A DNA stretch of 64,000 nt from an uncultured Victivallaceae bacterium (lineage in GTDB: Bacteria > Verrucomicrobiota > Lentisphaeria > Victivallales > Victivallaceae), in the NCBI GenBank assembly GCA_944389925.1, contig CALXOD010000011.1, forward strand, positions 1-64,000, written 5' to 3'. The notes below the pieces were generated by a model that saw only the letters and a program-made list of their open reading frames with translations, was not told where the DNA came from and did no database searches. Below are positions 37,733 to 56,942 of the stretch, piece by piece (position 1 is the first letter of the stretch; every line of letters starts with the position of its first letter). The position numbers and the translations under genes are program-made.

Positions 37733-40700
37733 TCAGTTTCGACTCAGATCCAGCGCCAGCAATTCCCCTGTGGCAGAACCTGCCAGCAGCCGGTCTCCGA
37801 TCCGATCCAGCGTCAGTACCGCCCCGGACAGACGGCCGACCTGTTGCATCGTCCCATTTCCTTCAAACCGCACGATCGCACCGTCATCCAATCCGAAATA
37901 CAGAACACCGTCTTCCGCAATCAGTGTGCGCGGTCCGGCAGGAAGCGCCACTACGCGAAAAAGTTTCAACTGCTGGTCAAAGATATACACTTTGCCGTTG
38001 GCGGTCGCGACGATGATATCCGTTGCACCATTCTGGTCGAAGTCGACCACAGCGGCGCAGCGCATAGTTGTGTCGATGAGAGCGGGGCGCTCATACCACG
38101 GCGTGGCGGAAGCAGCCGTCTTGCCTGCTCCGAAATTCGCTTCATTCAATGCCTTCCCTTCGGCATCACGCAGCACCAGGCGGTTCTGCACACCATTGAA
38201 GACATTCGCCACACGCCATTCGCCGTCGCTGTTCCGAAAATACAGGACAAACTGCTGCGATACCTGACTGAAACCGAATGAACCCAGATTATCCTGCAAT
38301 CCCCGATTCCAGCCGATCATGGAAATCTTCAGATCCTTCGTCATTCGATGCAGATCCGGACCGCCGCTGACCAGACGCCGGAGTAATACATCATCACTCC
38401 CCGGCACAGGAATCATTTCCTCTACCGGACCGTACAGCACGTACAAACGCTTCTGCAGTTGTCCCTGCGCATTCAGCACTTCCACAGTACCGGCACTGCC
38501 AACGTACAGAACGTCACCGCGTGGAAGAATACTCCGGATTCCCGGCACCGCCGATTTATGATGATACGGTCCGAATTGCAACATCTCCGGAGCCATTTCC
38601 GAGGTAAAAGTCCAGCGGGCCGTTCCCTGGAGATCCCACGCGCACAGTTTTTCGTCCATGCAACCGGCCAGCAACAGGCCGGTCTCCGGCCACCAGGCAA
38701 GACGACCGATCGCCCCGGAGGTCTCACGCTGCCAGAGCACTCGCCCGTCGGCGGGATCCAGCAATCGCAGAACTTTCCCGGAAGCAAGTGCGATTTTGCC
38801 GTCCGCCACACAACTGACACCGGCATACGGAGCCACTTTCTGACTCCAGAGAACCGGCAGCGGAGCCTCCGGCAGTGGAGCGGCTGGTGTTGCCGCCGGA
38901 CGGGCCTTCAATGCCACTTCCGCCAGCTCTCTCACCGCGGCGTCTCCGGCGCTCAAGCTACCGGTATTTCCCGAAACGGTCAACGTCTCCTGCGGCGTTC
39001 GCAATACGAATCCATCCTTTGTCCAGCTCCAGAGCGCCGGTTCCGGCGTGGCCAGTGCCACCCCGTCAGCAGTCTCTGCTGTGCCCCGGGTAGCTTCCGG
39101 AGCTCCGGTGCGGACGATGGAGGCAAAACGCACTACGTCCCCGCGCTTCAGGGCTCCGGTATCCAGCTGCCAGGTGAGAATTTCCGGACCGCAAAGATAG
39201 GTATTCCAGGGAGTTTTCTCCAGTGTTTCCGCAGCATCGGCGCTGGTGCTGAGCGTGTACTCCCGGGCACCACCGGCCAGATTCAGACGCAGGTGATAAT
39301 CGCCGTTGGCGGCACGGCCCATCCGGCTTACGTTGAATTGCGATGCGAACCGGTTGTCCAACCGGGCCGATTCCATATCGCGAACCGCCGTCAAGGTATC
39401 GGCGGCGATCAGATATTCTCCGCGTTTTCCCAGCCAGGTACGCTGCCAGTCGAAACCGTTGAAATTTTTCACCAGTCCGGTAATCCAGTAATAAGGACCG
39501 GCCGAACCGGCAGAGAGAATATCGCTGTAAAAAGGCTGCTGCAAATCGGCAAGATGGTTGCCGAACGGAGTCAGAGTGTTTTCAAATCCGCGCAGCACCG
39601 GTGCCCCGGCCAGCGTTCCGTTGACCAGAGAAAAATTATGCTGAGTTTCGCGAATCCCGAAGTCATAACGGGTATCAACCAGCAGATAGTCGCCGTTTCG
39701 GTCAGGCGCGGTACGAAAACTGAGATATTGCAGCTCCGTTTCCTGCGGCGCATCGGGGCGGGCGGTGCGGAAGAAATTCCATTTTCCGAGATTTTCGCGG
39801 ATGCTGTCGCGCGGATACGGCGTCGTCGGCCAGAAAGACTGCCCGATGCGAAACTCGTCAAGGTTGAAAACCGTGTTGGAGGCTACTCCAGCGGTCTTCT
39901 TGTTGTTCAACATATCGATCAGCCCCTGATCCTGCGCCAGATACGCCCCCGCAAGAAGCGTCCACAAACTGGTGTAAAGCCCGTTTCGATCATCATTGCC
40001 CGGTGCCAGATCCGACAGCAGCGACAACCCGCGGGCGTAATCACGCAGTCCCGGATGATCCACATAGCGGTGCCCCTGCAAAATGGCGTAATAAAACTGC
40101 AACTCGGTATTGGTATTCATCCAGTAAAGCGGAATATGCCCATTAATGATCGCCGTGTAAAGCGGTTCCATAGCGTTTTTCCCAAAACGCAGACCTTCCG
40201 CGGTGTCAAAAGAGGGATAGTCTTTGTTCAGATACCGTGCCGCCGTATAAACCAGCAGAGCCTCCCAACCGGCGTGACGATCGGGACGAACCGGTTTGTA
40301 TTCCTGATAACGCCGGTAGGGGTTGGTATAATCGTCCCGGGTCATACGGTAAACCAGCAGCTCGTAAATCTTCTGAATCACCTGCAGCCGCTCCGCATCG
40401 GAAAAAAGCGGATTCTCATCGACCAGATCCCAGTAGAGCAGCATGAACTGCCCGCGATAATGATAAACCTTGACGATCGGCTCCCGGCGGTCGTGATACG
40501 CCTCATCGTCGCGTTCAAAAAGTTCGTCCAGCGTGGCCTGGTCTTTGGGAAAAGCCAGACGCATGAATTCGTTCTTGTAATACGGATCATTGGTGATATA
40601 GAGCATGGCAAGATTCTTCGCCAGGGAGTTCCAGCCGAAATACCCCTTGTTGCCGTATCCAGCCGATTCTTCCCAGAGCGGAATATCCTTGACATCGCGC

Positions 40701-41716
40701 GCCACCCGGTAGGCCGGGGAAAGCGTCGCATCCGAAAGAAACCCCAGTGCGAGTTCACCGCGGACGCCCCGGGACTTTTCCAGATGACCGATCAATTTTT
40801 CGACGGCGGCGGCATCGCCCGCCGGATCGCTGCCGCCGGCCAGAATCACGTTATGATGGTCGCCGAAGGGATTGTGCAGACTGCGCACCTCGTTACCGCC
40901 GACACCCGGATAACGCGCATCCAGCAGCGTAAAGTGCCGGTTGTACAAATTGGAGATGGTCCGGTTGCGGTCCCGGTTGCCGATGACGATGAGGTTCCGG
41001 TCCAGCCGGTCGGCGTTTTCATAAGCGGTATGCGACAGCACCGGCAAAGTGACGCCAGTCAACCGGGAAATGACCGCATTGAGTTTAGCAGCAAGCGCCG
41101 CATCGCCGACAATGGCGGCGGCAGCCTGACCGTTCTGCACCAGAGCAGTAGTCAGATGGCGGTCTTTCAATTCAATTTTAACTTTTCCCAGACGGCTTGC
41201 CGGAGTGGGCGGTGCAGGGACCTGAGACGGCGGCGCCCCAATGTGCAGAAACGGCTTGCGAAATGCCGCCTTGCCGGGGCGCTTCTGCAATTGCAGATAA
41301 AATTCCGCGCTCTTAACCGGTTTCCCGGGCACATAGGTACGGCTGTAGGTACGCCACGCGGCGTCACTCCCGGGAGTGCAACCGAAATTCACCCAGTTGG
41401 TCCGGCTCCCGTCGGTGTGAAGCAAATCCACCCGGCAGCCGAAATTGCCGTCCATTTTTCCGGGAACGGATTCCGCCATGGCTTCGCAGCCAAACGTCAA
41501 TGGCTGAACCTCTTTTTGATTCAGTTCCACCGTCTGCCGAACCACGCTGACGGTCTTCTCGTCGGGATTGACGATGGTGTACACACCGTCTTTCAGCGTC
41601 GTCGTCTGCGGATTGCCGATCGTAAGCGGTTCTTTGAGCAAATTGGCGTCATCCGCCGTAACGGCACAGAGCCACCCTGCCAGCAGCAATCCCCCCCAAA
41701 TCATCCTTCTTCTCAT
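37733..41716 (-). CDS. large secreted toroid-domain protein with C-terminal PQQ-like beta-propeller
   Basis: 1327 aa. The ATG at 41716 is preceded by AGGAGA (8 bases); upstream ATGs at 41731 and 41821 are less likely. Signal peptide MRRRMIWGGLLLAGWLCAVTA. N-terminal beta region (to about 190), a middle part of helical toroid type (about 340-640) leading to a heparinase-like beta domain (YLLVDTRYDFGIRETQHNFS near 690). From about 980 to the end, PQQ-like propeller blades (VLRLLDPADGRVLWQRETSG, LLLAGCMDEKLCAWDLQGTA, LLAGSATGELLALDLSRN). Similar in plan to the lyase-propeller fusion at 52503 but with a different propeller type. The lyase assignment is weaker here since the HxH motif is not seen. 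Single gene with its own promoter and operator-like palindrome. Confidence 0.7.
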   Translation of the reverse strand: MRRRMIWGGLLLAGWLCAVTADDANLLKEPLTIGNPQTTTLKDGVYTIVNPDEKTVSVVRQTVELNQKEVQPLTFGCEAMAESVPGKMDGNFGCRVDLLHTDGSRTNWVNFGCTPGSDAAWRTYSRTYVPGKPVKSAEFYLQLQKRPGKAAFRKPFLHIGAPPSQVPAPPTPASRLGKVKIELKDRHLTTALVQNGQAAAAIVGDAALAAKLNAVISRLTGVTLPVLSHTAYENADRLDRNLIVIGNRDRNRTISNLYNRHFTLLDARYPGVGGNEVRSLHNPFGDHHNVILAGGSDPAGDAAAVEKLIGHLEKSRGVRGELALGFLSDATLSPAYRVARDVKDIPLWEESAGYGNKGYFGWNSLAKNLAMLYITNDPYYKNEFMRLAFPKDQATLDELFERDDEAYHDRREPIVKVYHYRGQFMLLYWDLVDENPLFSDAERLQVIQKIYELLVYRMTRDDYTNPYRRYQEYKPVRPDRHAGWEALLVYTAARYLNKDYPSFDTAEGLRFGKNAMEPLYTAIINGHIPLYWMNTNTELQFYYAILQGHRYVDHPGLRDYARGLSLLSDLAPGNDDRNGLYTSLWTLLAGAYLAQDQGLIDMLNNKKTAGVASNTVFNLDEFRIGQSFWPTTPYPRDSIRENLGKWNFFRTARPDAPQETELQYLSFRTAPDRNGDYLLVDTRYDFGIRETQHNFSLVNGTLAGAPVLRGFENTLTPFGNHLADLQQPFYSDILSAGSAGPYYWITGLVKNFNGFDWQRTWLGKRGEYLIAADTLTAVRDMESARLDNRFASQFNVSRMGRAANGDYHLRLNLAGGAREYTLSTSADAAETLEKTPWNTYLCGPEILTWQLDTGALKRGDVVRFASIVRTGAPEATRGTAETADGVALATPEPALWSWTKDGFVLRTPQETLTVSGNTGSLSAGDAAVRELAEVALKARPAATPAAPLPEAPLPVLWSQKVAPYAGVSCVADGKIALASGKVLRLLDPADGRVLWQRETSGAIGRLAWWPETGLLLAGCMDEKLCAWDLQGTARWTFTSEMAPEMLQFGPYHHKSAVPGIRSILPRGDVLYVGSAGTVEVLNAQGQLQKRLYVLYGPVEEMIPVPGSDDVLLRRLVSGGPDLHRMTKDLKISMIGWNRGLQDNLGSFGFSQVSQQFVLYFRNSDGEWRVANVFNGVQNRLVLRDAEGKALNEANFGAGKTAASATPWYERPALIDTTMRCAAVVDFDQNGATDIIVATANGKVYIFDQQLKLFRVVALPAGPRTLIAEDGVLYFGLDDGAIVRFEGNGTMQQVGRLSGAVLTLDRIGDRLLAGSATGELLALDLSRN

Positions 41717-41809
41717 CCCGCTTCTCCTCATTTTATCGAAGCGTCCCTCCGAAAGACCTCCTTCGGCTCCACCGCCGCAGCGCTCCCGGAAAATTCGTTT
41801 CTGCTTTTT

Positions 41810-41830
41810 ATTATAATGCAATGCGCATTG
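41810..41830 (-). promoter_or_regulatory. -10 element with adjacent 12-bp palindromic operator candidate
   Basis: Minus strand TATAAT (41810-41815) with the perfect palindrome CAATGCGCATTG (41819-41830) directly upstream, where the -35/-10 spacer would be. The -35 itself is poor, as in promoters that need or are blocked by a regulator. Confidence 0.5.
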
Positions 41831-43773: not shown

Positions 43774-44818
43774 GATGTGCTTGATTCCTGTCTGTTGAAT
43801 ATTGGGTATTTCCTGGAGATTCAAGATGAACATGCAGATAAATTCTTGCCCCGCCACAGCCGGGACGGCGAATCCGCCGCAGCGCCTCCTCCAACGCCAG
43901 TTCGCCTCCATTGCGCCAATCCGGCAATATGGCCGGAGTCACCGGCCCGTAATCCGGCACCAGCAGTGCCTTGCCGTCCATGGATAAAATCACCAGTTCC
44001 TCCACCGGCAGCTCCCGCCCACATCCTTTGCGGTAATGCAATGCACAACCATGCAAATGCGTCCCACCGGTAAACAGATACCCGATGTCATTCCGGGAGA
44101 AATCGGTTTTCTCCACCACCCGGCACTCCGACCATACCGCCGCAAACGCCTCTGCCCGGCGCCGCGTTACCGGGGCATCAAAGTTGACCACCTGCACTTC
44201 CCGGATCCCGCGTTCCCGGAAAAAATCCGCCGCCAGTTCCGCCGCCTCAAAAGGATCCAGCGAAATCGGCGATACCAATCCCCCATACCGCCGGTCCATC
44301 TCCACTCCGACCACCGGAACCCGCAACGGCAACTCCGAATATACCTGATCATAGCTGCCCACCACAATGACCGCGTCACACCGATCATTCAGAGTCGTCA
44401 ACATCTCCCGGGCCATATTTTTCTCCCGGGGAATGTAGTAGGGAATGGCAAAAAACTCCACCCCTACTCCATGTCGTGCCGCCGCATCCAGAATGCCCCG
44501 TACCACATAGAACCCATAATTCTTCTCATGGGAACTGTCCTGGACGATGGCAATCCTCGGCCCATTCCAGCTCTTGCCCCTCTCCGGTATCATGGAACCG
44601 GCGACAAAGACCCCAGATCGGGCACGGCACTCCAGCAGTCCCTTATCCCGCAACATCCAGAGTCCGCGGCGAGCCATATCAGTATTGATGCCAAAACGTT
44701 CCGCCAGCATCCGCAGCGAAGGAAGACGGCACCCCGGTCCCCAGAAACCGGCAGCAATCTTTGCTTCGATATCATCGGTCATTCGTTGATAACCGGGCTT
44801 TCGAGCTTCGCGTCTCAT
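43739..44818 (-). CDS. GntR/LacI-type hybrid transcriptional regulator
   Basis: 359 aa. N-terminal GntR winged helix (about 10-72; [35 protein letters not shown]) joined to a LacI/GalR-like periplasmic-binding-protein sensor (about 85-340; [48 protein letters not shown]). Ligand probably a sugar. First gene of its operon; the leader carries a direct repeat at the predicted transcription start, pointing to autoregulation. Paralogue of the regulator at 51355 (same domain plan, both with DIGYxF and a VDGK/MDGK segment near the end). Confidence 0.9.
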
Positions 44819-44828
44819 GGCACCCCCA

Positions 44829-44847
44829 ATCTGTTAGCATCTGTTAG
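44829..44847 (-). promoter_or_regulatory. direct-repeat operator candidate upstream of the GntR/LacI-type gene
   Basis: Two perfect copies of CTAACAGAT (minus strand) spaced with a 10-base period, overlapping the expected transcription start and lying just downstream of the -10. Confidence 0.6.
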
Positions 44848-44850
44848 ACA

Positions 44851-44879
44851 ATTATACAACAAAACCATTTAAAAGGCAA
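44851..44879 (-). promoter_or_regulatory. promoter of the regulator-prepilin-hydrolase operon
   Basis: Minus strand TTGCCT, 17-nt spacer, TATAAT, placed directly before the direct-repeat operator. Confidence 0.6.
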
Positions 44880-45007
44880 GAGCCGCCCTTACATTTTTCA
44901 AACAAAAATCATAGAATCTATTCCCAGTCTCCGGATCCGCAATCTGACAACCTGCATAAGAAACTTCCCCCCATAAAAAAAAATCAAAAAAAGTTTGTCT
45001 AAACTAA

Positions 45008-45035
45008 TTGAAATATCCACAATACCCTGTATAGT
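45008..45035 (+). promoter_or_regulatory. candidate promoter of the Cys/Lys-repeat gene
   Basis: TTGAAA, 16-nt spacer, TATAGT, about 225 bases before the start codon at 45261. Confidence 0.5.
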
Positions 45036-45153
45036 AAAAAAAGAATTAAAAAAACAAATCACTCCACATTTACGCCCATAACACAAAAAAAACAACACAA
45101 CCGGCAATCTATTAAAATGCCATAATCCTTGTTATCAAAAGATTTTTTAAAAG

Positions 45154-45177
45154 ATTAATTAGGCAAGACTAATTAAT
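45154..45177 (+). promoter_or_regulatory. inverted repeat in the leader of the Cys/Lys-repeat gene
   Basis: ATTAATTAG, 6-nt loop, CTAATTAAT: perfect 9-bp arms. Either an operator or an RNA hairpin; 83 bases before the ATG. Confidence 0.5.
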
Positions 45178-45260
45178 ATCGATAGCCAATCAGCCTGGAA
45201 CATGAATCTTATCGGGAAACCATGAAGGTTTCCTTCAAAAAACAAATGAAAGGAAAAAAC

Positions 45261-45794
45261 ATGAACAGAATGAAAAAAATGGCCCCCTGGATGATCGCCG
45301 GTCTCCTCAGCTTTAACCTGAGCGCTTTTGCGGCCGAATCGGCGTCGCCCACAGTGGCGGTACCGGCAGAAAAAGAGCTGCAAAAAGCCACCATATCTGA
45401 AAACATCTGCGCCTCCCCCAAAGATAGCATCTGCCGCAAGCAGGCTTCCTGCGACAAAAAAAAGAACACGTCCTGCAACAAAAAGATGGATTGCAGCAAA
45501 GAAAAGAACCTCTGCGACAAAAAGACGGATTGCGGCAAAGGAAAGAACCTCTGCGACAAAAAGACGGATTGCGGCAAAAAAAAGAGCCTCTGCGACAAAA
45601 AGATGGATTGCAGCAAAGAAAAGAGCACTTCCTGCAGCAAGGGGAAGACGTCTTTAAAAACGTCCCGGTCCCCCCTCGCCGCCACCTGCGATCGCAGCGC
45701 CCAGACAGAAGCGAAGAATAATGTCGCCGGGACTTCCGCAACCAACAATAGTGTGAAGGCGCCGATTGCACCAGCCACTCCGGTCAAGCGGTAA
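45261..45794 (+). CDS. secreted Cys/Lys-rich tandem-repeat protein
   Basis: 177 aa from the ATG at 45261 (AAAGGA 6 bases upstream). Signal peptide (about 1-27, [23 protein letters not shown]). The mature part has a cysteine- and lysine-rich segment (residues about 55-130) with four tandem 13-14-residue units of the type [13 protein letters not shown], then a Ser/Thr/Ala/Pro-rich tail. No family recognised. The Cys-x5-Cys and Cys-x6-Cys spacing with charged residues suggests metal binding or disulfide ladders, by analogy with small Cys-rich exported proteins; this is inference. Followed after 88 bases by a prepilin gene on the same strand, with no terminator seen between, so it could be co-transcribed. 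Confidence 0.8.
45462..45620 (+). repeat. in-frame tandem repeat, four units of 39-42 bases
   Basis: Units at 45462-45503, 45504-45542, 45543-45581 and 45582-45620. Units 2 and 3 are nearly identical; unit length is a multiple of three, so copy number can change without loss of frame. Confidence 0.92.
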
Positions 45795-45882
45795 TCTCGC
45801 CATCAGACAGGGCAACAATCCCATTGGCGGAACTGAAGGGACGTCTTCTTCTTCCGCCAATGGTCAGGAGATTCATGCAAAC

Positions 45883-46716
45883 ATGAGACAAAAAAATTCT
45901 TTTACCTTGATTGAGCTGCTGGTGGTCATCGCGATCATCGCATTGCTTGCAGGCATGCTGATGCCGGCTCTGGGAAAGGCCCGGAATATGGCGAAGAAAA
46001 GCTCCTGCTCCAATAACCTGAAGCAACTTGCCACGGGAGCTATTCTTTACAGTGCAGACCATGACGACTGGATGGCCGGTGCCACCGGCGGCTGGTGTTG
46101 CGGTCGAAGCACATGGATCGCCGGAAATGTCAATCAGCGCCGGGTCGATCTACGCACCAACGGCCTGATCACCCCATATATCAGCAACAACCTCCGGGTG
46201 AAATGCTGCCCGGATGTCGCAGAATTCGCCCTTAACCAGTTAGGACCACAGGAGTCAGTTCCGGATATGGCCACTTCCTCTTCCGTAGGAGAATGCCGCG
46301 GCGGCGGATACGGTATGAATGCGCTGTTCGGCTTCCGCAATCGGACATCGCCGATGCGGGTTCGCGCCTCTGCCATCGTCAGCCCCAGCCGGGCAGTCAT
46401 GCTCAGCGATACCAAACTGGACTGGAGCGATACTCTTACCGTTTACCCCTACTATCTTCTGCCACGGACATTACCCGGTACCGTCAATAGCGGTACGGCT
46501 GCCAACTGGGGAGCGACTCAGCATTTCCGCCATCTCGGCACCGCCAATGTCGCCTGGGCGGACGGTCATGTCAGCGCCGAGCGGCCGGGTGAATTTGACA
46601 CCACGGAATACGCCCTGACGGAAAACATCGGCTGGATCGGCACCAATGATTCATGGTACTGTCTTCTGAAAAACGACTTCACTGATCTAAATATAAAACC
46701 GGGTGATTACCGGTAG
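45883..46716 (+). CDS. prepilin-like protein with H-X9-DG-type motif
   Basis: 277 aa from the ATG at 45883 (CAGGAG 12 bases upstream). [18 protein letters not shown] leader/helix, [17 protein letters not shown], a Cys-rich spot (WCCGRSTW), KCCPDV mid-protein, and [16 protein letters not shown] at the end (H-X9-DG spacing kept). Precedes the membrane protein at 46730 and the FMN-binding lipoprotein at 47257 on the same strand. Role unknown; its placement again couples a prepilin with other cell-surface proteins. Confidence 0.9.
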
Positions 46717-46729
46717 AAAATCTGTTGTT

Positions 46730-47176
46730 ATGAAACTCAAAAAACGCTATTTTGCTTATGCAGCCTGCGCGGCATTGGCAATTTCATTACTGATCTGGGC
46801 TCATTATGACCCCCCTTATATGGCGGAACTGAAAAAAACCACCCCGGTAGAGAGTGCAACGGAAGAACCGCTGGCGGTTGTCGCTGATGCCCTGGAAGCG
46901 GTAAAAACACAGAACCGGCAACAGTTGTTCCAGCTGATGCTGATCAAAGACTCCACGGAATTTCAACGATATGCCGGCATCCTTCAGAAAGGCGGGGAGC
47001 TTTTTCCGATAGAAACAGCTGGTTGCCGAAAGCTGGTAAACAGCCATAGAAGTGACAATGTCTCTGTATACATATACAGTCATCCACGCCGCAAAACCTA
47101 TCAGTTCACTCTGTTGCGAGATACCGACGGGCAATACCGGATCCGCAGTATATCCCTCGCCCGGCAGCGTCCCTGA
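46730..47176 (+). CDS. single-pass membrane protein of unknown function
   Basis: 148 aa. One N-terminal hydrophobic helix (about 5-24, YFAYAACAALAISLLIWAH) and a charged extracytoplasmic domain that resembles small NTF2-like accessory domains only loosely (LQKGGELFPIETAGC, YQFTLLRDTDGQYRIRSISL). I do not recognise the family. The ATG at 46730 is used; a GTG at 46703 in frame would start inside the previous gene. Lies 13 bases after the prepilin stop, so it is in the same transcript, and 80 bases before the FMN-binding lipoprotein. Confidence 0.65.
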   Translation: MKLKKRYFAYAACAALAISLLIWAHYDPPYMAELKKTTPVESATEEPLAVVADALEAVKTQNRQQLFQLMLIKDSTEFQRYAGILQKGGELFPIETAGCRKLVNSHRSDNVSVYIYSHPRRKTYQFTLLRDTDGQYRIRSISLARQRP

Positions 47177-47256
47177 CTCATGCCGGACGGTGTAACGTAC
47201 CGAATCTTCATCCCCTGTCCCTCATCGCCCCTTAACCTTCAAGGATTCTCTCATTT

Positions 47257-47865
47257 ATGAAACAATCACTCATCCTCACCATTTCCGTTGTTCTGGCTGC
47301 CCATCTTCTGTCAAGCGGCTGCGATCAACCGCCACCAGCCGCAGCCGGAAAAACATCCCCCGCTCCGCCCCAGGCAACCTCTCCGGAAGCGCCCCCCCTA
47401 TCTTCCACCGCCGACTTGCAACAGTTCCGCGCGGATCTTGTTAAACTTCTACCGGATTTCGCCACCTGGGGCGCAACCCGGAACCGGCGGACGGAACTCC
47501 TGGATCAGGACGGTCGCAGGATCGGATATCTGCTGATCGCGCCTGCCAACCGTACCACCCGTACGAAAGGATATCGGGATGTCATCTCTGTCGCAGCTAT
47601 TCTTTCTCCGGAAAATCGAGTCATAGGCGTGATTCTCGGCGCTCACCGGGAAACACCGCGCTACCTGCAAAAACTCCGTACTGCCTCCTACTTCGAACAG
47701 TGGAACGGACTCACTCCGGAAGAAGCCGCGCAACAACAGGTTGATGCTGTAACCGGCGCAACTTTGTCCTGCAATGCCATCGCAGCGGAACTACGGGATG
47801 TTTTCCAGCCTGAATCACCTGTCACGGGAATGGCCGCGCCCCCTTCCCCGTCCCCATCGGAGTAA
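47257..47865 (+). CDS. lipoprotein with covalent-FMN-binding domain (RnfG/NqrC-type)
   Basis: 202 aa. Lipoprotein signal with lipobox LLSSGC (Cys22), a Pro/Ala-rich linker (24-52), then an FMN-binding domain (about 55-185). The flavinylation motif is VDAVTGATLS with Thr169 as the expected attachment residue; IGVILGAHRETP fits the conserved region before it. Such domains carry FMN bound through a phosphoester to Thr, attached by ApbE outside the cytoplasm; an apbE gene lies at 57267. The protein probably works in extracytoplasmic electron transfer. Shine-Dalgarno AAGGAT. No Rnf or Nqr partners are in the window. Confidence 0.85.
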   Translation: MKQSLILTISVVLAAHLLSSGCDQPPPAAAGKTSPAPPQATSPEAPPLSSTADLQQFRADLVKLLPDFATWGATRNRRTELLDQDGRRIGYLLIAPANRTTRTKGYRDVISVAAILSPENRVIGVILGAHRETPRYLQKLRTASYFEQWNGLTPEEAAQQQVDAVTGATLSCNAIAAELRDVFQPESPVTGMAAPPSPSPSE

Positions 47866-47911
47866 GGCTCTACCAGAAAAACCGGCAAACCTGCCGTCGA
47901 GATGCCCCATC

Positions 47912-47939
47912 AGCAGTCCCCCCCCACCCGGGGACTGCT
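47912..47939. other. perfect 10-bp hairpin between convergent genes
   Basis: AGCAGTCCCC/GGGGACTGCT with an 8-nt loop between the FMN-lipoprotein and AraC stops. No T run on either strand, so termination here is unproven. Confidence 0.5.
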
Positions 47940-47976
47940 CATAAGCGCCGCAGAGAGGGGGGGACGGCTTCCTCTC

Positions 47977-48813
47977 TTATGTACTTCGGTTGCGGAATGC
48001 TGCCGGAGAATAGCCGTATACGGCTCTGAAGGCCTTGCAGAAATAGCTGATATTGTTGTAGCCGCATTCCACGGCAATTTCCTTGATATTTTTGTTGGAT
48101 GCCTGCAGCATCTGCGCGGCAAAACGCATCTTGATATTAATGATAAGCTCCTGTGGCGGCATGCCGGAGATCTCCCGGATCCGACGCGAAAAATACCAGC
48201 GACTGATATGACAACTCTGCGCCAGATCCTCCACGGTAATTCTTTCCGCCATACGTTGAAGGCAGATACGATGCACCGTGTTCAACAGCTGATTGGCCTG
48301 ATCGTCCGCCGGTACAGTACATTCCGACAGCAAAGCCATGGCAAACTCATAGGCCCTGGCCGAGGCGGCATGAGGAGACTGCAGCAGCTCCACCTCCCCC
48401 AACATCCGGCGCAGAAGCATCACCGCCGGAGACTGTGCCGTCTGCCGCAGCAGGAACCCGTATTTCCGGCGATACTGGCCCAGCAGCCGGATAATCCCCT
48501 CACCGCACAAAGTCGCAAATAAAAACTCCCAGCCATCAGATTGTTTCGGCAGGTAATAGCAATGATCTTCCGGAATCATCAGCAACATGCTCTGTCCGGG
48601 AAGAACGGCATACCGTTGTTTCCCCATCGCCAATTCCCCTTGTCCGGCCAGACAATGCTGCCATATGACAATCGGCCGGTTACCGCGGGCCAAGCCGTGA
48701 AAACAATAACTGTGGTCCGTCACGCATTGATGGCCAAAATTAATCAACATTGCGGGCAGAGAATCAAACTGCTCGTCAAATAAAAAATTATGAATCGTCT
48801 TCCTGGACCGCAT
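47977..48813 (-). CDS. AraC-family transcriptional regulator
   Basis: 278 aa from the ATG at 48813 (GGGAAGG 9 bases upstream). The ATG at 48840 lies almost at the predicted transcription start and lacks a Shine-Dalgarno. N-terminal cupin-like sensor (VIWQHCLAGQGELAMG, AVLPGQSMLLMIPEDHCYY) and C-terminal double helix-turn-helix (ITVEDLAQSCHISRWYFSRR, IKEIAVECGYNNISYFCKAF, YGYSPAAFR). Divergent from the frameshifted prepilin gene at 49037 and its followers, which are its likely targets. Ligand unknown. Confidence 0.9.
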   Translation of the reverse strand: MRSRKTIHNFLFDEQFDSLPAMLINFGHQCVTDHSYCFHGLARGNRPIVIWQHCLAGQGELAMGKQRYAVLPGQSMLLMIPEDHCYYLPKQSDGWEFLFATLCGEGIIRLLGQYRRKYGFLLRQTAQSPAVMLLRRMLGEVELLQSPHAASARAYEFAMALLSECTVPADDQANQLLNTVHRICLQRMAERITVEDLAQSCHISRWYFSRRIREISGMPPQELIINIKMRFAAQMLQASNKNIKEIAVECGYNNISYFCKAFRAVYGYSPAAFRNRST

Positions 48814-51354: not shown

Positions 51355-52467
51355 ATGGATCCAGTCTCCTCTAATTGCAGTCGGCCGGAGATCGCGTCCG
51401 ATCTGATTGATTACCTGAATGCGCAGATTCTCACCGGGGTCTATCTGCCGGGAGCTCGCCTGCCTTCTGTCCGGGCTCTGATGCGGCGATTCAACCTGTG
51501 TTACAGCTCCACGCTCAATGGCATTAATTACCTCTGCAGCCAGGGGGTGCTGGAAAAAGTGCCGAAACGCGGCATCTATGTGCGCGGCGGCGCCCGCAAC
51601 CGGCCGAATGGCGGCAAAGGACTGATCGGCGTCATCACGCATTTCCCGCACTTCACGGATCCGGATGTCGATCATGGCTTCGTGTACACAGCACTTGGAG
51701 CGGTCCAGAAAATGGCGGCGGATTTCGGGTATCCGCTCCTGCCGATTCCGCTGGAAGACACCCGCTTGCTCTGTCAGTGCCTCGCTGCGCTGGAGAAGTG
51801 CGACGCCCTGATCATCATGAAATCTCTGGATGTTGCACTGCAATCACTGGATATTCGCGTTCCGGCTGCAGGTATGATGCTGGAAAACGATTTCGGTGGT
51901 CGAGTATCGATCGTGGAAATTGATCCTTTCACCACAGCCCGGCAGGCGCTTGTCTACTTTCAGCGGCATGGCTGCCGCAAAGTTGCTATTTTCTCAGACC
52001 CCAGGCCGGTTTACCGGCACCGGGGGAAAATTTTTGAATATATCTGGAAAGATCAGGGCGGCGAGATTGCCGACTGGGTGGTGGCCAATGCGCAAATACC
52101 CCGACAGGATCATTATCCCTTCTGCCGGGATATCGGTTATTTTTTTACTTCCGACCACCTCTGTGAACGTTGTGCCCGACCGTTTCTGGAACGAACCGGA
52201 CAGGAATTGATGGATTACTGTACCGTACTGTCCGTGGACGGGAAAAGCCTGATCTGTCCGGAATTCTGTCCGGTTCCAACCATAGCGATGGACTGGAAAA
52301 TGATCGGCCGGGCTGTTTTCGAGGAAGTCGTGTCGCGTCTGGAAAATCCGACGCGCCCGGCCCGGCGGATTTTTCTGAGCGGCAGATTAACGGAGCCGGC
52401 CCGAACCGGAGAGTCCCGCCGTCCGGCCGGAAAAAAGATATCAGCGGAACGTTTATCCATTCTATAA
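51355..52467 (+). CDS. GntR/LacI-type hybrid transcriptional regulator
   Basis: 370 aa from the ATG at 51355; ATGs at 51325/51328 are possible but sit at the predicted transcription start. N-terminal GntR winged helix (about 10-75; ARLPSVRALMRRFNLCYSST, VLEKVPKRGIYVRG) and LacI/GalR-like sensor domain (about 85-335; LIGVITHFPHFTDPDVDHG, CDALIIMKS, VPAAGMMLENDFGG, HGCRKVAIFSDP). A cysteine pair HLCERC is notable late in the sensor. The C-terminal 25 residues are basic and non-conserved. The lyase-propeller gene begins 35 bases after the stop, so this regulator probably controls it; no terminator lies between. Confidence 0.9.
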   Translation: MDPVSSNCSRPEIASDLIDYLNAQILTGVYLPGARLPSVRALMRRFNLCYSSTLNGINYLCSQGVLEKVPKRGIYVRGGARNRPNGGKGLIGVITHFPHFTDPDVDHGFVYTALGAVQKMAADFGYPLLPIPLEDTRLLCQCLAALEKCDALIIMKSLDVALQSLDIRVPAAGMMLENDFGGRVSIVEIDPFTTARQALVYFQRHGCRKVAIFSDPRPVYRHRGKIFEYIWKDQGGEIADWVVANAQIPRQDHYPFCRDIGYFFTSDHLCERCARPFLERTGQELMDYCTVLSVDGKSLICPEFCPVPTIAMDWKMIGRAVFEEVVSRLENPTRPARRIFLSGRLTEPARTGESRRPAGKKISAERLSIL

Positions 52468-52502
52468 TCACTCGCCTGAACAAGAAAGGAGCCGAACCAA
52501 AC

Positions 52503-55500
52503 ATGAAATCATCGTTGTTGCTCTCCGGCCTGCTGGTGCTGGCCGGAACCGCCGGTGCCGTCGACCTGTTGACGACACTGAAACCATCCGACGTGAAGAA
52601 AGAAGTCGGTGATTTCCAACTGGTGAAAGTGGACGGAAAAAACGCCGTCCGGCTGTCCGGCATCACCGGTTCCGGAGTCAATGGAAAAAATCTCTACCTG
52701 AACGGCTCCATCCGGTTGCCGCAAACGGTCAATCTGGAAGGGAAAACTTTGCAACTGACGGTTCAATCCGCACACCCTGCGCCCGGATTCTATGTCCGAG
52801 CCTACAATGCGCAGGGACAAAAGCCCGCCTGGAGTTTTCTCTCCTGGGATCAGCCGGTAGGCCAGACTCCCCGCACCATCAGTCTGACCCCCGGACGCAA
52901 CCGGGCCCTGAACTGGGAAAAGGCAGTGACCTCCGGCGACAAGGCGGATCGGATCAACCGTCTGCAATTTTTTGTCGGTACGCCGAATGAAAAAACCAAA
53001 GTGGACCTCCTGATTACCGGCTTGCAGGTGATTCCGGAAATTCCGCTTAAGGACGATCCGCCGCTTCCCGGCAGTCCGGGGGCCGGAGCCCCGGCGCTGA
53101 CCAAGGTCGTCGACCTGCCGACGGAAACTGTCCTGGTAAAAGACGGTAAGGCCGTATTTGAAATTCTCCATCCGGACTCCGCTCCGGGCAAAGCCGCTGC
53201 GGAGAAAATTGCCGCTGCCGTGAAAAAAACGACCGGCGCCACAGTCTCCTGCCGCCCCGGCACTGACGCCGACCGGATTCCGAAACAAACCACGATCATG
53301 CTGGGGAACATTTTCAGCAACCCGGCGCTGAAAGTCCTGTATACCCGCAAACAGACCGCCGTAGACGAATTTCTCCCCGGCAAAGGCGGGTATACCGTAG
53401 AATCCATTCTGGAGCCTTTCCGGCGCGGGCAGGACGTGATTGTACTTGGTGCCTCAGACGACGCCGGTCTTGACGCGGCAGCAACAGCCTTTCTTGCCGA
53501 ACTGGCCAAACAGCCGGCCGGTGAAGATCTGAAACTCCCGCTCACTTTCAAGAAAAAATACACGTCACGGATCCGCGGCGGCGAAAAGAAGGAAAACCAT
53601 ATTGCCGATGGGCTCAAAACCGCTCGGAACCGGCTTGATCAGGGCATTCACACCTCGCTTGGCGGTCAGCTTGCCGGAATTGCACAGAACTATCTGCTGC
53701 ACCGTAACCCCGATGATGCCAAACTGTATGTGGAAGTCGCCAAACTGTATGCGGACAGCGCCAAGAGCGACCCGCGCAAATTCGGCGGCGCCTGGGGTTT
53801 CGACAGCGACTTTCCTTCCTATGAAGCCATTTCCGGCTGGGACCTCATCGAACACGATCCGGTTCTGACCGCTGAAGACCGCCTGGCGGCCGGTAACGTG
53901 CTGCTCCGCTGGCTCCATGAAGCCATCGCCGCCGAAGCCCGCGGTGGAATCCGGGGGACCGGTCCGGTCAGCAATCACCTGACCTTCGCCTCTCTGGGAA
54001 CGATGGCCGGCTCCTTCTATTTCGGCAAATACTACAGCGATGTGCTGCAGGAACCGGCCATGTGGGAAAAAATCATCCGTCACAACTTCGCCCGTCAGAC
54101 CGCGCATGGCAAAGCGCATGATGATTGCGACAGCTATCAGTGGCTGACCTGGCGTCATATCATGGTGTATACCATGGCCATGCCGGATGAAACCATCTTC
54201 AACAACGGTGTCGGCCGCCGCGTTCTGGAAGTCTGCGGAACCACCATGGACAACCTCGGTGCACAGGCGCCCTACGGCGACACCAGCGGCTGGGCCTCCT
54301 CCTCCAGCGATCGAATCGTGCTTGACATGTACCATGCTGCCACTCGTGACAAACTGGTGGCAAAACTGCTGGAAATCAAACGTCAGACTCCGCGTACCCT
54401 CGTGCCCGGCATGTTTTACGGTGAGGTCCATGCGGAAGACACGCAGGTGCTGGACGGCGTGAAAATCATCCCGCTGGATCCCGGCTACTACAAACACATC
54501 GCCGCGGAAGGCGTAGTTCCTCCGCTGAAGCAGTGCTTTGACAAGTTCTCCTTCCGGGAAAAACTGGATCCGGAAGCGCTTTACGTTCTTGTGGACGGCA
54601 TCAATAACGGCGGTCATCGCCATGCTGACGCGAACAGTGTGTTGCGTTATTCACACTTCGGCCGCGACTGGCTGGCTGAAAATGACTACATCAAAAATCA
54701 GCAGAAATACCACAACTCCCTGCTGCTGCTCTACAATGGAGAATCGTTCCCGCTTCCGGATTATATGGCGGTAGCGGATACTGGCGATACCCCGGACTTC
54801 GGTTACGTCGTCGTCCGTGCCGCCGGTGTCGGTCCGACCGACTGGCTCCGGTACTATGTCTGGCTGAAAAAAGACAACGCCTGGCTGGTCATTGACGAAG
54901 TCATTGCCGGCAAGGACGGCCAATATCGACTGAAACAGCGTTGGAACGGCATCGGCGATGTGACCGAAAAACCCGACGGCTATGAATTGGAACAGCAGGG
55001 TTCCTCCGTCCGGCTCCAGACCGCCGGCAACGCCACATTGACCGTATATGACGATCCTGATCTTGGCCGCCAGTGGGCCAGCTATCCTTTCGCTAAACCG
55101 GTTGCCCATGTGATGGACCAGACCCGGGAAACCACCCTCAAAGCCGGAGAAAAAGTCCAGCTGATTGCTCTCTGGCATGGAGCTTCCGGCAAACAGCCGG
55201 TTCCGGAATGGGCGGTAGACGCCGCCGCGGACGGATTCCGCGTCAACACCGGAGCCCGGCAGTATGCCATCCAGCCCGGCAAAGACGGCAAGCTGAATAT
55301 TCAGATGACGGAAAGCACCGTCCCCGTCGCCCCGCGCACCAAAGCTGCTGCCGGAGACAAGGAAGAAACCGCTCCGGCGATCACGCCCGAATGGCGCACT
55401 TCGCAGAGCAGCGGCGGTCTGACGGAGCTGAGTGCCCCCGGCATCGCCGAAGCACTGGGAATGACCCTGAACGGGACCAAACCGGCAAAAGCCAATGTCT

Positions 55501-56942
55501 TCATTGCAGAAGCCGGAAACAAACTTTCGGCGGCCATCGATGGCACCTGTACTGAAGGTGGTGATTCGGTCATGTTCGATCCCGACACCCAGGTGGTTCT
55601 GAACTATCAGTTTGCTGCGCAGCAGGAAATCTGTGCCGTGGAACTGCAACTCTGGTGGTCGTCCACCTCCAGCCGCAATACAGCCTACAAACTGATGACT
55701 GCGGAAGTGGAAATGAGCAACGACAATTTCCGCAGCGACGTGCGTAAGGTCTATACGTTCGATGCCAGCCGGGAAAGTCATCCCAACTTCGGGCATCCGG
55801 TTCGCTTCCTGTTCGAATTCCCGGCACAGAAAGCCCGTGAAGTACGCCTGACGCTGACGCCTCAGAAAGACACGGCCATTTATCTCGGCGAAGCGACGCT
55901 GCTCGGCCATCCCGCGCCCGGCACCCGTCTCCCCGCCCGCCAGGCGGAATTCACTCAGGTGATCCGGGTTCAGGATGCCCGGGGAGATTATCTGGCCGCA
56001 GGCAGTGAAAACGGCAATCTCTTCTTCTACTCCCTCGACGGCAAGCCGCTGGATACGCTCAAAATCGGGGCCAAGATCAATGATCTGGCTGCACTCGACG
56101 TAGACGGAGACGGCGAAAACGAACTGCTGCTCGCCTGCCGCGACGCGTATCTGCGCGCTATCAAACGCGATGGGAAAGAACTGTGGAAGACCAAGTTCGA
56201 ACAGTATCGTCTCTATCCGGATGTAACCATCGTCAAAACCGCCGACCTCGACGGTGACGGCAAGGACGAAATTCTGGTCGGCTGCGACAACTGGCGTACC
56301 TACGCGCTGGATCGCAATGGCAAGGAAATCTGGCGGTTTGAAGTGGTTCATCCCACCCGCGCCGTGGAAGTTGCCGACATCGACGGCGACGGCAAGCCGG
56401 AAGTGCTGTGCGGCACCCGGTATATGTGGGCAACCGTGCTGGACCACCAGGGGAATAAACTCTGGGGCGGACGCTTCGGCGTCGGCTGCCGTGCGATCAC
56501 CGCACCGCTGAACGGCCAGGGGAAAAATCGCAACGTCGTTATCGGCATTGACAGTGGGAAAGTCTCGTTCCACGACCGCAACGGTCAGGAATTCAAATCC
56601 TTCCTGACTGGAGATGAAATTTTCATGATGGACACCGCTGTACCGCGCAACGGCCAGGAAGATATCTTCGTGGCCTCCTACAACGGTTATGTCTACCGGT
56701 TCACATCGGATGGGAAACTCATCTGGTGCCGGGCGCTGCCGGACAGTGTGGTCGTCGTACGCGCCCTGCCCGACGGCGGTGCGGTCGCCGGTACAATCGG
56801 CGGCGATGTTTGTCTCCTGACGCCGGACGGAAAAATCCGCGGTCAGGTCCAGCTCCATGGTCGGATTGCGGACATTCTGGTCGACGGGCAGGAACTCCGC
56901 GTCGTGAGCCAGGGTGGTGAAATTGCCACGCTCAAATTCTGA
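52503..56942 (+). CDS. secreted heparinase II/III-like lyase fused to FG-GAP-type beta-propeller
   Basis: 1479 aa. Start at 52503 with GGAG 10 bases upstream; the frame is open further upstream but that part is not coding. Signal peptide MKSSLLLSGLLVLAGTAGA. N-terminal beta domain (to about 180, PAWSFLSWDQPVG), a region of alpha/beta type around 215-340 resembling the N-terminal domain of some glycosidases (AAEKIAAAVKKTTGATV), an alpha/alpha-toroid (about 365-620), heparinase II/III domain (NNGGHRHADANSVLRYSH near 703, QKYHNSLLLL), a discoidin-like beta domain (about 980-1140) and from about 1150 a propeller with calcium-type repeats DVDGDGENE, DLDGDGKDE and DIDGDGKPE. Likely extracellular lyase with a binding or scaffolding propeller. 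In operon with the regulator upstream; terminator downstream. Confidence 0.82.
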   Translation: MKSSLLLSGLLVLAGTAGAVDLLTTLKPSDVKKEVGDFQLVKVDGKNAVRLSGITGSGVNGKNLYLNGSIRLPQTVNLEGKTLQLTVQSAHPAPGFYVRAYNAQGQKPAWSFLSWDQPVGQTPRTISLTPGRNRALNWEKAVTSGDKADRINRLQFFVGTPNEKTKVDLLITGLQVIPEIPLKDDPPLPGSPGAGAPALTKVVDLPTETVLVKDGKAVFEILHPDSAPGKAAAEKIAAAVKKTTGATVSCRPGTDADRIPKQTTIMLGNIFSNPALKVLYTRKQTAVDEFLPGKGGYTVESILEPFRRGQDVIVLGASDDAGLDAAATAFLAELAKQPAGEDLKLPLTFKKKYTSRIRGGEKKENHIADGLKTARNRLDQGIHTSLGGQLAGIAQNYLLHRNPDDAKLYVEVAKLYADSAKSDPRKFGGAWGFDSDFPSYEAISGWDLIEHDPVLTAEDRLAAGNVLLRWLHEAIAAEARGGIRGTGPVSNHLTFASLGTMAGSFYFGKYYSDVLQEPAMWEKIIRHNFARQTAHGKAHDDCDSYQWLTWRHIMVYTMAMPDETIFNNGVGRRVLEVCGTTMDNLGAQAPYGDTSGWASSSSDRIVLDMYHAATRDKLVAKLLEIKRQTPRTLVPGMFYGEVHAEDTQVLDGVKIIPLDPGYYKHIAAEGVVPPLKQCFDKFSFREKLDPEALYVLVDGINNGGHRHADANSVLRYSHFGRDWLAENDYIKNQQKYHNSLLLLYNGESFPLPDYMAVADTGDTPDFGYVVVRAAGVGPTDWLRYYVWLKKDNAWLVIDEVIAGKDGQYRLKQRWNGIGDVTEKPDGYELEQQGSSVRLQTAGNATLTVYDDPDLGRQWASYPFAKPVAHVMDQTRETTLKAGEKVQLIALWHGASGKQPVPEWAVDAAADGFRVNTGARQYAIQPGKDGKLNIQMTESTVPVAPRTKAAAGDKEETAPAITPEWRTSQSSGGLTELSAPGIAEALGMTLNGTKPAKANVFIAEAGNKLSAAIDGTCTEGGDSVMFDPDTQVVLNYQFAAQQEICAVELQLWWSSTSSRNTAYKLMTAEVEMSNDNFRSDVRKVYTFDASRESHPNFGHPVRFLFEFPAQKAREVRLTLTPQKDTAIYLGEATLLGHPAPGTRLPARQAEFTQVIRVQDARGDYLAAGSENGNLFFYSLDGKPLDTLKIGAKINDLAALDVDGDGENELLLACRDAYLRAIKRDGKELWKTKFEQYRLYPDVTIVKTADLDGDGKDEILVGCDNWRTYALDRNGKEIWRFEVVHPTRAVEVADIDGDGKPEVLCGTRYMWATVLDHQGNKLWGGRFGVGCRAITAPLNGQGKNRNVVIGIDSGKVSFHDRNGQEFKSFLTGDEIFMMDTAVPRNGQEDIFVASYNGYVYRFTSDGKLIWCRALPDSVVVVRALPDGGAVAGTIGGDVCLLTPDGKIRGQVQLHGRIADILVDGQELRVVSQGGEIATLKF

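Follow-up and report, generated by a model that had tools for sequence, protein, structure and literature searches.

A Cys/Lys repeat gene at the head of a pseudopilin cassette with a predicted DtxR-type operator in Lentisphaeria: a possible metal-starvation system

The window, which is the whole stretch of 64,000 nucleotides that was analysed, raises the question of what a secreted repeat protein rich in Cys and Lys does directly upstream of a prepilin gene. The original prediction described this product (here termed CK) as a protein of unknown family and proposed that it binds metal or forms a disulfide-linked envelope protein. Going beyond that prediction, the analysis places the prepilin, an NTF2-like protein and an FMN_bind protein in one cassette with CK and finds an operator at 45157-45174. 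The features of the locus are as follows.

44992-45009, no strand: second operator-like site AGTTTGTCTAAACTAATT (19.9 bits, 18-bp PWM), 269 nt upstream of CK
45157-45174, no strand: palindromic DtxR-type operator AATTAGGCAAGACTAATT (14/14 consensus positions, 0/300 shuffles)
45250-45254, + strand: Shine-Dalgarno-like AAGGA, 6 nt before the ATG at 45261
45261-45794, + strand: CK gene, secreted Cys/Lys repeat protein (ORF, repeat, synteny, dN/dS)
45261-45332, + strand: putative CK signal peptide, with probable cleavage after AFA (sequence and a crude signal-peptide rule)
45455-45624, + strand: CK repeat array of 39 nt or 13 aa (TRF and repeat search)
45883-46716, + strand: Cys-bearing type IV pseudopilin (Pfam N_methyl and DUF1559; conserved body)
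46730-47176, + strand: membrane-anchored NTF2-like protein (AlphaFold pLDDT 86; NTF2-like matches in the PDB)
47257-47865, + strand: FMN_bind (RnfG/NqrC-like) lipoprotein with the flavinylation-type motif VDAVTGAT (PF04205, E 1.1e-9)

The CK ORF encodes a 177-aa protein with 13 Cys. An in-frame ATG further upstream, at 45222, has no Shine-Dalgarno sequence, whereas the ATG at 45261 is served by AAGGA, and the CK starts of relatives are mostly preceded by a purine-rich stretch too. The claimed signal peptide is borne out by the sequence and the crude rule. If cleavage after residue 24 is assumed, the mature protein has 153 aa with all 13 Cys, and its 34 K+R against 17 D+E (pI 9.4) agree with the highly basic character that had been proposed. 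The tandem repeat is indeed in frame: TRF assigns a period of 39 nt, 4.3 copies and 89% matches, and a repeat search finds five copies exactly 39 nt apart, the inner of which are 89-92% identical. The Cys spacings (7,5,7,5,6,5,6,5,6,5,7,17) point to regular inner units and degenerate outer ones.

No family in Pfam or NCBIfam matches the CK protein, in line with its description as a member of an unknown family. This includes metallothionein-type and other curated Cys-rich families, and no metal-binding domain is recognised in CK or in those repeat proteins of relatives that were scanned. The CK proteins of nine relatives jointly gave only weak, sub-cut-off matches to curated models, and an Rfam scan of 44800-48000 gave no match up to E 1. 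A protein search of the bacterium's own genome (2.8 Mb, 69 contigs) with CK yields one copy, and a CK homology search in genome_contigs found nothing. Among 100 relatives, nine weak matches besides CK itself (E 0.001-0.1) were left aside, and nothing comparable appeared. Plain homology finds no CK relative because the repeats evolve fast.

Gene order recovers what sequence similarity misses. With the NTF2-like and FMN_bind proteins as queries against the 100 relatives, seven loci (L050-L055 and L057) were found in which a CK-type ORF and a pilin recur with NTF2-like and FMN_bind genes. Four more cassettes (L079, L092, L093 and L133) came from profile searches of the order (137 genomes), class (197) and phylum (387); some pilin scores in the phylum survey took in seven candidates per genome, and the cassette count is possibly low. 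In total, a signal-peptide-bearing Cys/Lys(/His/Met) repeat gene lies directly upstream of a Cys-bearing pseudopilin in 12 genomes of the class Lentisphaeria, the window included. Five of these are uncultured Lentisphaeria or Victivallales MAGs, three of which come from the rumen. The genes share one strand and are spaced by -31 to +314 nt (11 cassettes; L133 left out). Membrane-anchored NTF2-like protein(s) follow the pilin in 11 of the 12. The FMN_bind lipoprotein is present in eight; the L133 contig ends at this point, and because the gene was not seen next to the L079, L092 and L093 cassettes, it is not part of the cassette core.

A rule that combines a signal peptide (the author's own crude rule, not SignalP) with a Cys/Lys/His score of at least 15 is passed by all 12 cassettes. 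The bacterium's own genome has a very large pilin repertoire, with 63 exact matches to the prepilin coding motif; only the window locus among these 63 passes, some of the control loci ending at contig ends (e.g. L175, 333 bases). Upstream of five pilins from related yet distinct subfamilies (L134, L137, L139, L141 and L142) there is no CK-type gene. G180, a thirteenth genome, also has a pilin and NTF2-like genes but is kept outside the 12, as no CK was seen on its broken contigs: one locus (L094) has a pilin of a second type and an NTF2-like gene without CK, and another (L097) an NTF2 fragment at the contig edge. Weak NTF2-profile matches in G020, G125, G176 and G178 (E 5e-10 to 6e-4) are likewise without a CK gene.

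The CK proteins themselves barely align, with 18-28% identity to the window CK in seven relatives, and their length differs even between related species (144 versus 120 aa; 199 versus 240 aa). In two pairs of related genomes CK is nevertheless under purifying selection, with dN/dS of 0.136/1.01 and 0.199/1.51 (about 0.13). Set beside the 55-65% identity of the pilin body in five relatives, these values mean that CK keeps its composition and its place while the sequence drifts. A frame without conservation in relatives was named at the outset as evidence against the gene. Position and composition are conserved across the 12 genomes, although distant genomes share no alignable CK sequence. A chance ORF or an artefact of another frame is ruled out by dN/dS and synteny, and the CK reading frame is judged real on these comparative grounds.

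The prepilin gene predicted just downstream starts 88 nt after CK. Its product scores 30.4 bits with PF07963 (N_methyl; cut-off 21.2) and 19.3 with TIGR04294 (H-X9-DG; cut-off 19), and itself has conserved Cys. Across orders, its body keeps 55-65% identity to that of five relatives, which come from the family of the bacterium itself, from a second family in its order and from a further family in the class. The AlphaFold model of the pseudopilin (pLDDT 40) was left unused. The next protein matches no Pfam family. In its AlphaFold model an N-terminal TM helix precedes an NTF2-like domain, for which the best PDB match has Z 10.4 over 102 residues (rmsd 3.1) and the best Foldseek match E 9.6e-3 (prob 0.99); a sequence profile gave only four weak PDB matches, three of them to designed proteins. 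Flavinylated FMN_bind lipoproteins carry a D..(S/T)GAT-type motif. In an alignment of eight FMN_bind sequences D163, A168 and T169 are invariant, and in L052, L053 and L054 the G of the motif is replaced by R. In a doubled cassette at L052 (6819-7514, - strand), one ORF seems to join an NTF2-like domain to a shortened FMN_bind part from which the TGAT-type motif is missing. In the repeat proteins at L092 (8579-9178) and L093 (5482-6204) there is also an insert that is not repetitive (CDSSTITLVLPCGHDVK type); L052 has one of a similar kind. The window cassette is flanked by two very long ORFs (37733-41821, - strand; 52170-56942, + strand); to the eye, the C-terminal parts of both resemble beta-propellers.

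The consensus AATTAGNCNNGNCTAATT occurs, at one mismatch or fewer, in a single place in the bacterium's own genome, and lies within 400 nt upstream of 10 of the 12 CK genes (at least 11/14 positions), each with no more than 4/300 shuffles; the L052 and L057 sites are at about -440. A PWM scan of 36 loci (407,021 bases) yields 43 sites of at least 14 bits, whereas each of 10 block shuffles yields 0-2; nine of the 43 are the CK sites on which the PWM was trained. By the author's sorting, 18 sites lie upstream of CK, five between CK and pilin, two before feoAB, 16 before sister FMN_bind genes and two before a pilin, and none elsewhere. As a check on circularity from the training, an independent PWM built from sister FMN_bind promoters only recovers a site in 10 of the 12 CK promoters (at most 2/1000 shuffles). 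The FMN_bind locus L056 has no operator. A site of the same type precedes feoAB in L057 and in the bacterium's own genome, where it is weak (14.6 bits, 11/14 positions). Two own-genome prepilin loci of one shared region (L148 and L149) carry a site; there, on a short contig (C8; L229, 1-4931), the operator has prepilin genes and a gene of the MotA/ExbB family in its vicinity.

The window operator resembles the published DtxR sites TTAGGTTAG(G/C)CTAACCTAA and TAAGGCAAGCCTAAATTAG (PMC1382209). Compared with shuffles, a Fur box upstream of CK gains no higher score in 11 of the 12 loci (L052, 8/200). The only PF02742 match in the bacterium's own genome is a 249-aa DtxR-like ORF 24 nt from the feoB end, and a DtxR-family gene (PF02742 over cut-off) is present in 14 of the 16 genomes searched. 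No such gene turned up in G181, a cassette genome, or in G180, both of them incomplete assemblies. A protein of this family would be the one that binds the operator, and the CK gene very probably belongs to a DtxR-type metal regulon cassette. The gene, the cassette, the operator, the site type common with feoAB and the DtxR-family gene are all read from sequence. DtxR-family proteins may respond to Mn as well as to Fe. In the G058 cassette a DtxR/MntR-type gene follows FMN_bind, and MntR models give its product the highest scores, though all stay below cut-off. Mn could take the place of iron.

Could the Cys/Lys/His-rich protein instead be a sink, a secreted metallothionein-like product induced by metal excess? 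Its composition would suit such detoxification. In several loci, however, the operator coincides with or directly follows a -10-like hexamer (author's reading), and it is shared with feoAB, which serve uptake; both points agree with repression by metal and expression in shortage and make a detoxifying role very unlikely. The same site type weighs on the second function that had been proposed, a disulfide-linked structural or adhesive envelope protein in which cross-linked repeats and pseudopilin form a coat or fibre and the metal operator only times expression. Cys pairs at constant spacing, the fast change in repeat number and sequence, and the constant neighbourhood of a pseudopilin that has conserved Cys of its own all speak for it. 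The repeats of L051 and L052, however, place one Cys per 11-12 residues together with His and Met, a pattern more ligand-like than cross-link-like, and the operator type is shared with feoAB. Such a coat or fibre is therefore considered unlikely, if less so than detoxification. For metal binding, which had been the other proposal, these Cys/His/Met-rich repeats in relatives and the operator type provide indirect support, and we lean slightly towards a CK repeat protein that would bind metal.

The reading preferred here is that CK heads a cassette for metal starvation, most likely iron starvation; the full scheme of metal capture, display, reduction and uptake has an even chance at best. In metal shortage a DtxR-family repressor would release the operator and the operon would be turned on. 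The CK protein would then be exported and, in the periplasm or on the cell surface, probably bind iron or some other thiophilic metal. Its display or movement is probably the task of the dedicated Cys-bearing pseudopilin, acting via a pilus-like machine of type II/IV. The NTF2-like membrane protein may serve as a scaffold, and the FMN_bind lipoprotein, where present, would pass electrons outward to reduce the bound metal, after which FeoAB would import Fe2+. Sequence gives good support to the regulatory step; the identity of the metal, its binding and reduction, and the surface assembly are parts that we infer. FeoA/FeoB follow the L057 cassette and ApbE stands divergently to the L053 cassette, which speaks for this reading; against it, each adjoins only one cassette in 12.

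A variant keeps the iron and changes the ligand. As a heme trap, CK would ligate heme iron through Cys/His and pair Lys with the propionates; heme would pass to a CobN-like dechelatase and its iron through FeoAB. Sister operons with the same operator do encode FMN_bind and CobN-like proteins (L063 and L081, the latter also with a pilin), and a further operator lies near pilin and ExbB-like genes in the bacterium's own genome. Within the CK cassettes no CobN-like gene was seen, and the window repeats lack the CP heme-regulatory motif, so that a heme trap is improbable, though it ranks above detoxification.

FMN_bind, pseudopilin and DtxR each belong to a known kind. What the open-access papers searched did not show, a weak negative, is a Cys/Lys repeat protein that evolves fast and is paired with a Cys-bearing pseudopilin of its own under a metal operator. 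It is a doubtful but distinct prospect that the CK proteins are the founding members of a new class of metal scavengers: gene-encoded, unmodified polypeptides that a dedicated pseudopilin brings to the surface, a flavinylated reductase unloads and a DtxR-type regulator switches. Lentisphaeria genomes are rich in pseudopilin genes for which no assigned role was found. Here a conserved subfamily goes together with a secreted repeat protein and with a set of metal-responsive sites to which feoAB also belongs, and this makes a role for such pseudopilins testable. The preferred scheme would point to a route of iron acquisition in rumen and gut anaerobes via flavin and cysteine repeats.

Among known systems, bufferins share with CK the Sec signal peptide, repeated Cys motifs and a proposed metal chelation outside the cytoplasm. 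The GKC units of L050 also resemble EGKCG bufferins (PMC12452194) and suggested an MNIO-modified RiPP precursor. CK differs in its partners (pseudopilin, NTF2-like, FMN_bind) and in matching no NCBIfam or Pfam model. None of the 12 cassette genomes has a DUF692/MNIO gene, and the control search matches in 2 of 14 known genomes. A bufferin-like precursor is ruled out for enzymes recognisable by PF05114 and is otherwise barely credible.

Flavinylation has been linked before to iron assimilation, through clusters with P19 or with DsbD/DUF3570/DUF4266 (eLife 2021, PMC8238504). They resemble the CK cassette in their extracytosolic FMN_bind and their iron link, and one class has a small secreted Cys protein, DUF4266; the window cassette differs by its pseudopilin and repeat protein. 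No P19, DsbD, DUF3570 or DUF4266 match (Pfam) occurs among the window cassette proteins scanned, and the main text of that paper has no mention of pilin or Lentisphaer. In Bacteroides, CobN-like HmuS/BtuS and FeoAB serve the use of heme iron (PMC12583661 and PMC6460266). FeoAB belongs to the site set here too, and the CobN-like proteins of the sister operons are related to HmuS/BtuS by domain; the CK cassette itself differs in having no such gene. These CobN-like proteins (L063, 6594-10715; L081, 5119-6465), which stand beside operator-controlled FMN_bind operons, form a possible Lentisphaeria heme-iron system of their own. With H-X9-DG/DUF1559 pseudopilins, finally, the window pseudopilin shares the prepilin N-terminus and the C-terminal DGH motif; unlike them, it belongs to a Cys-bearing subfamily that is conserved across orders and tied to CK.
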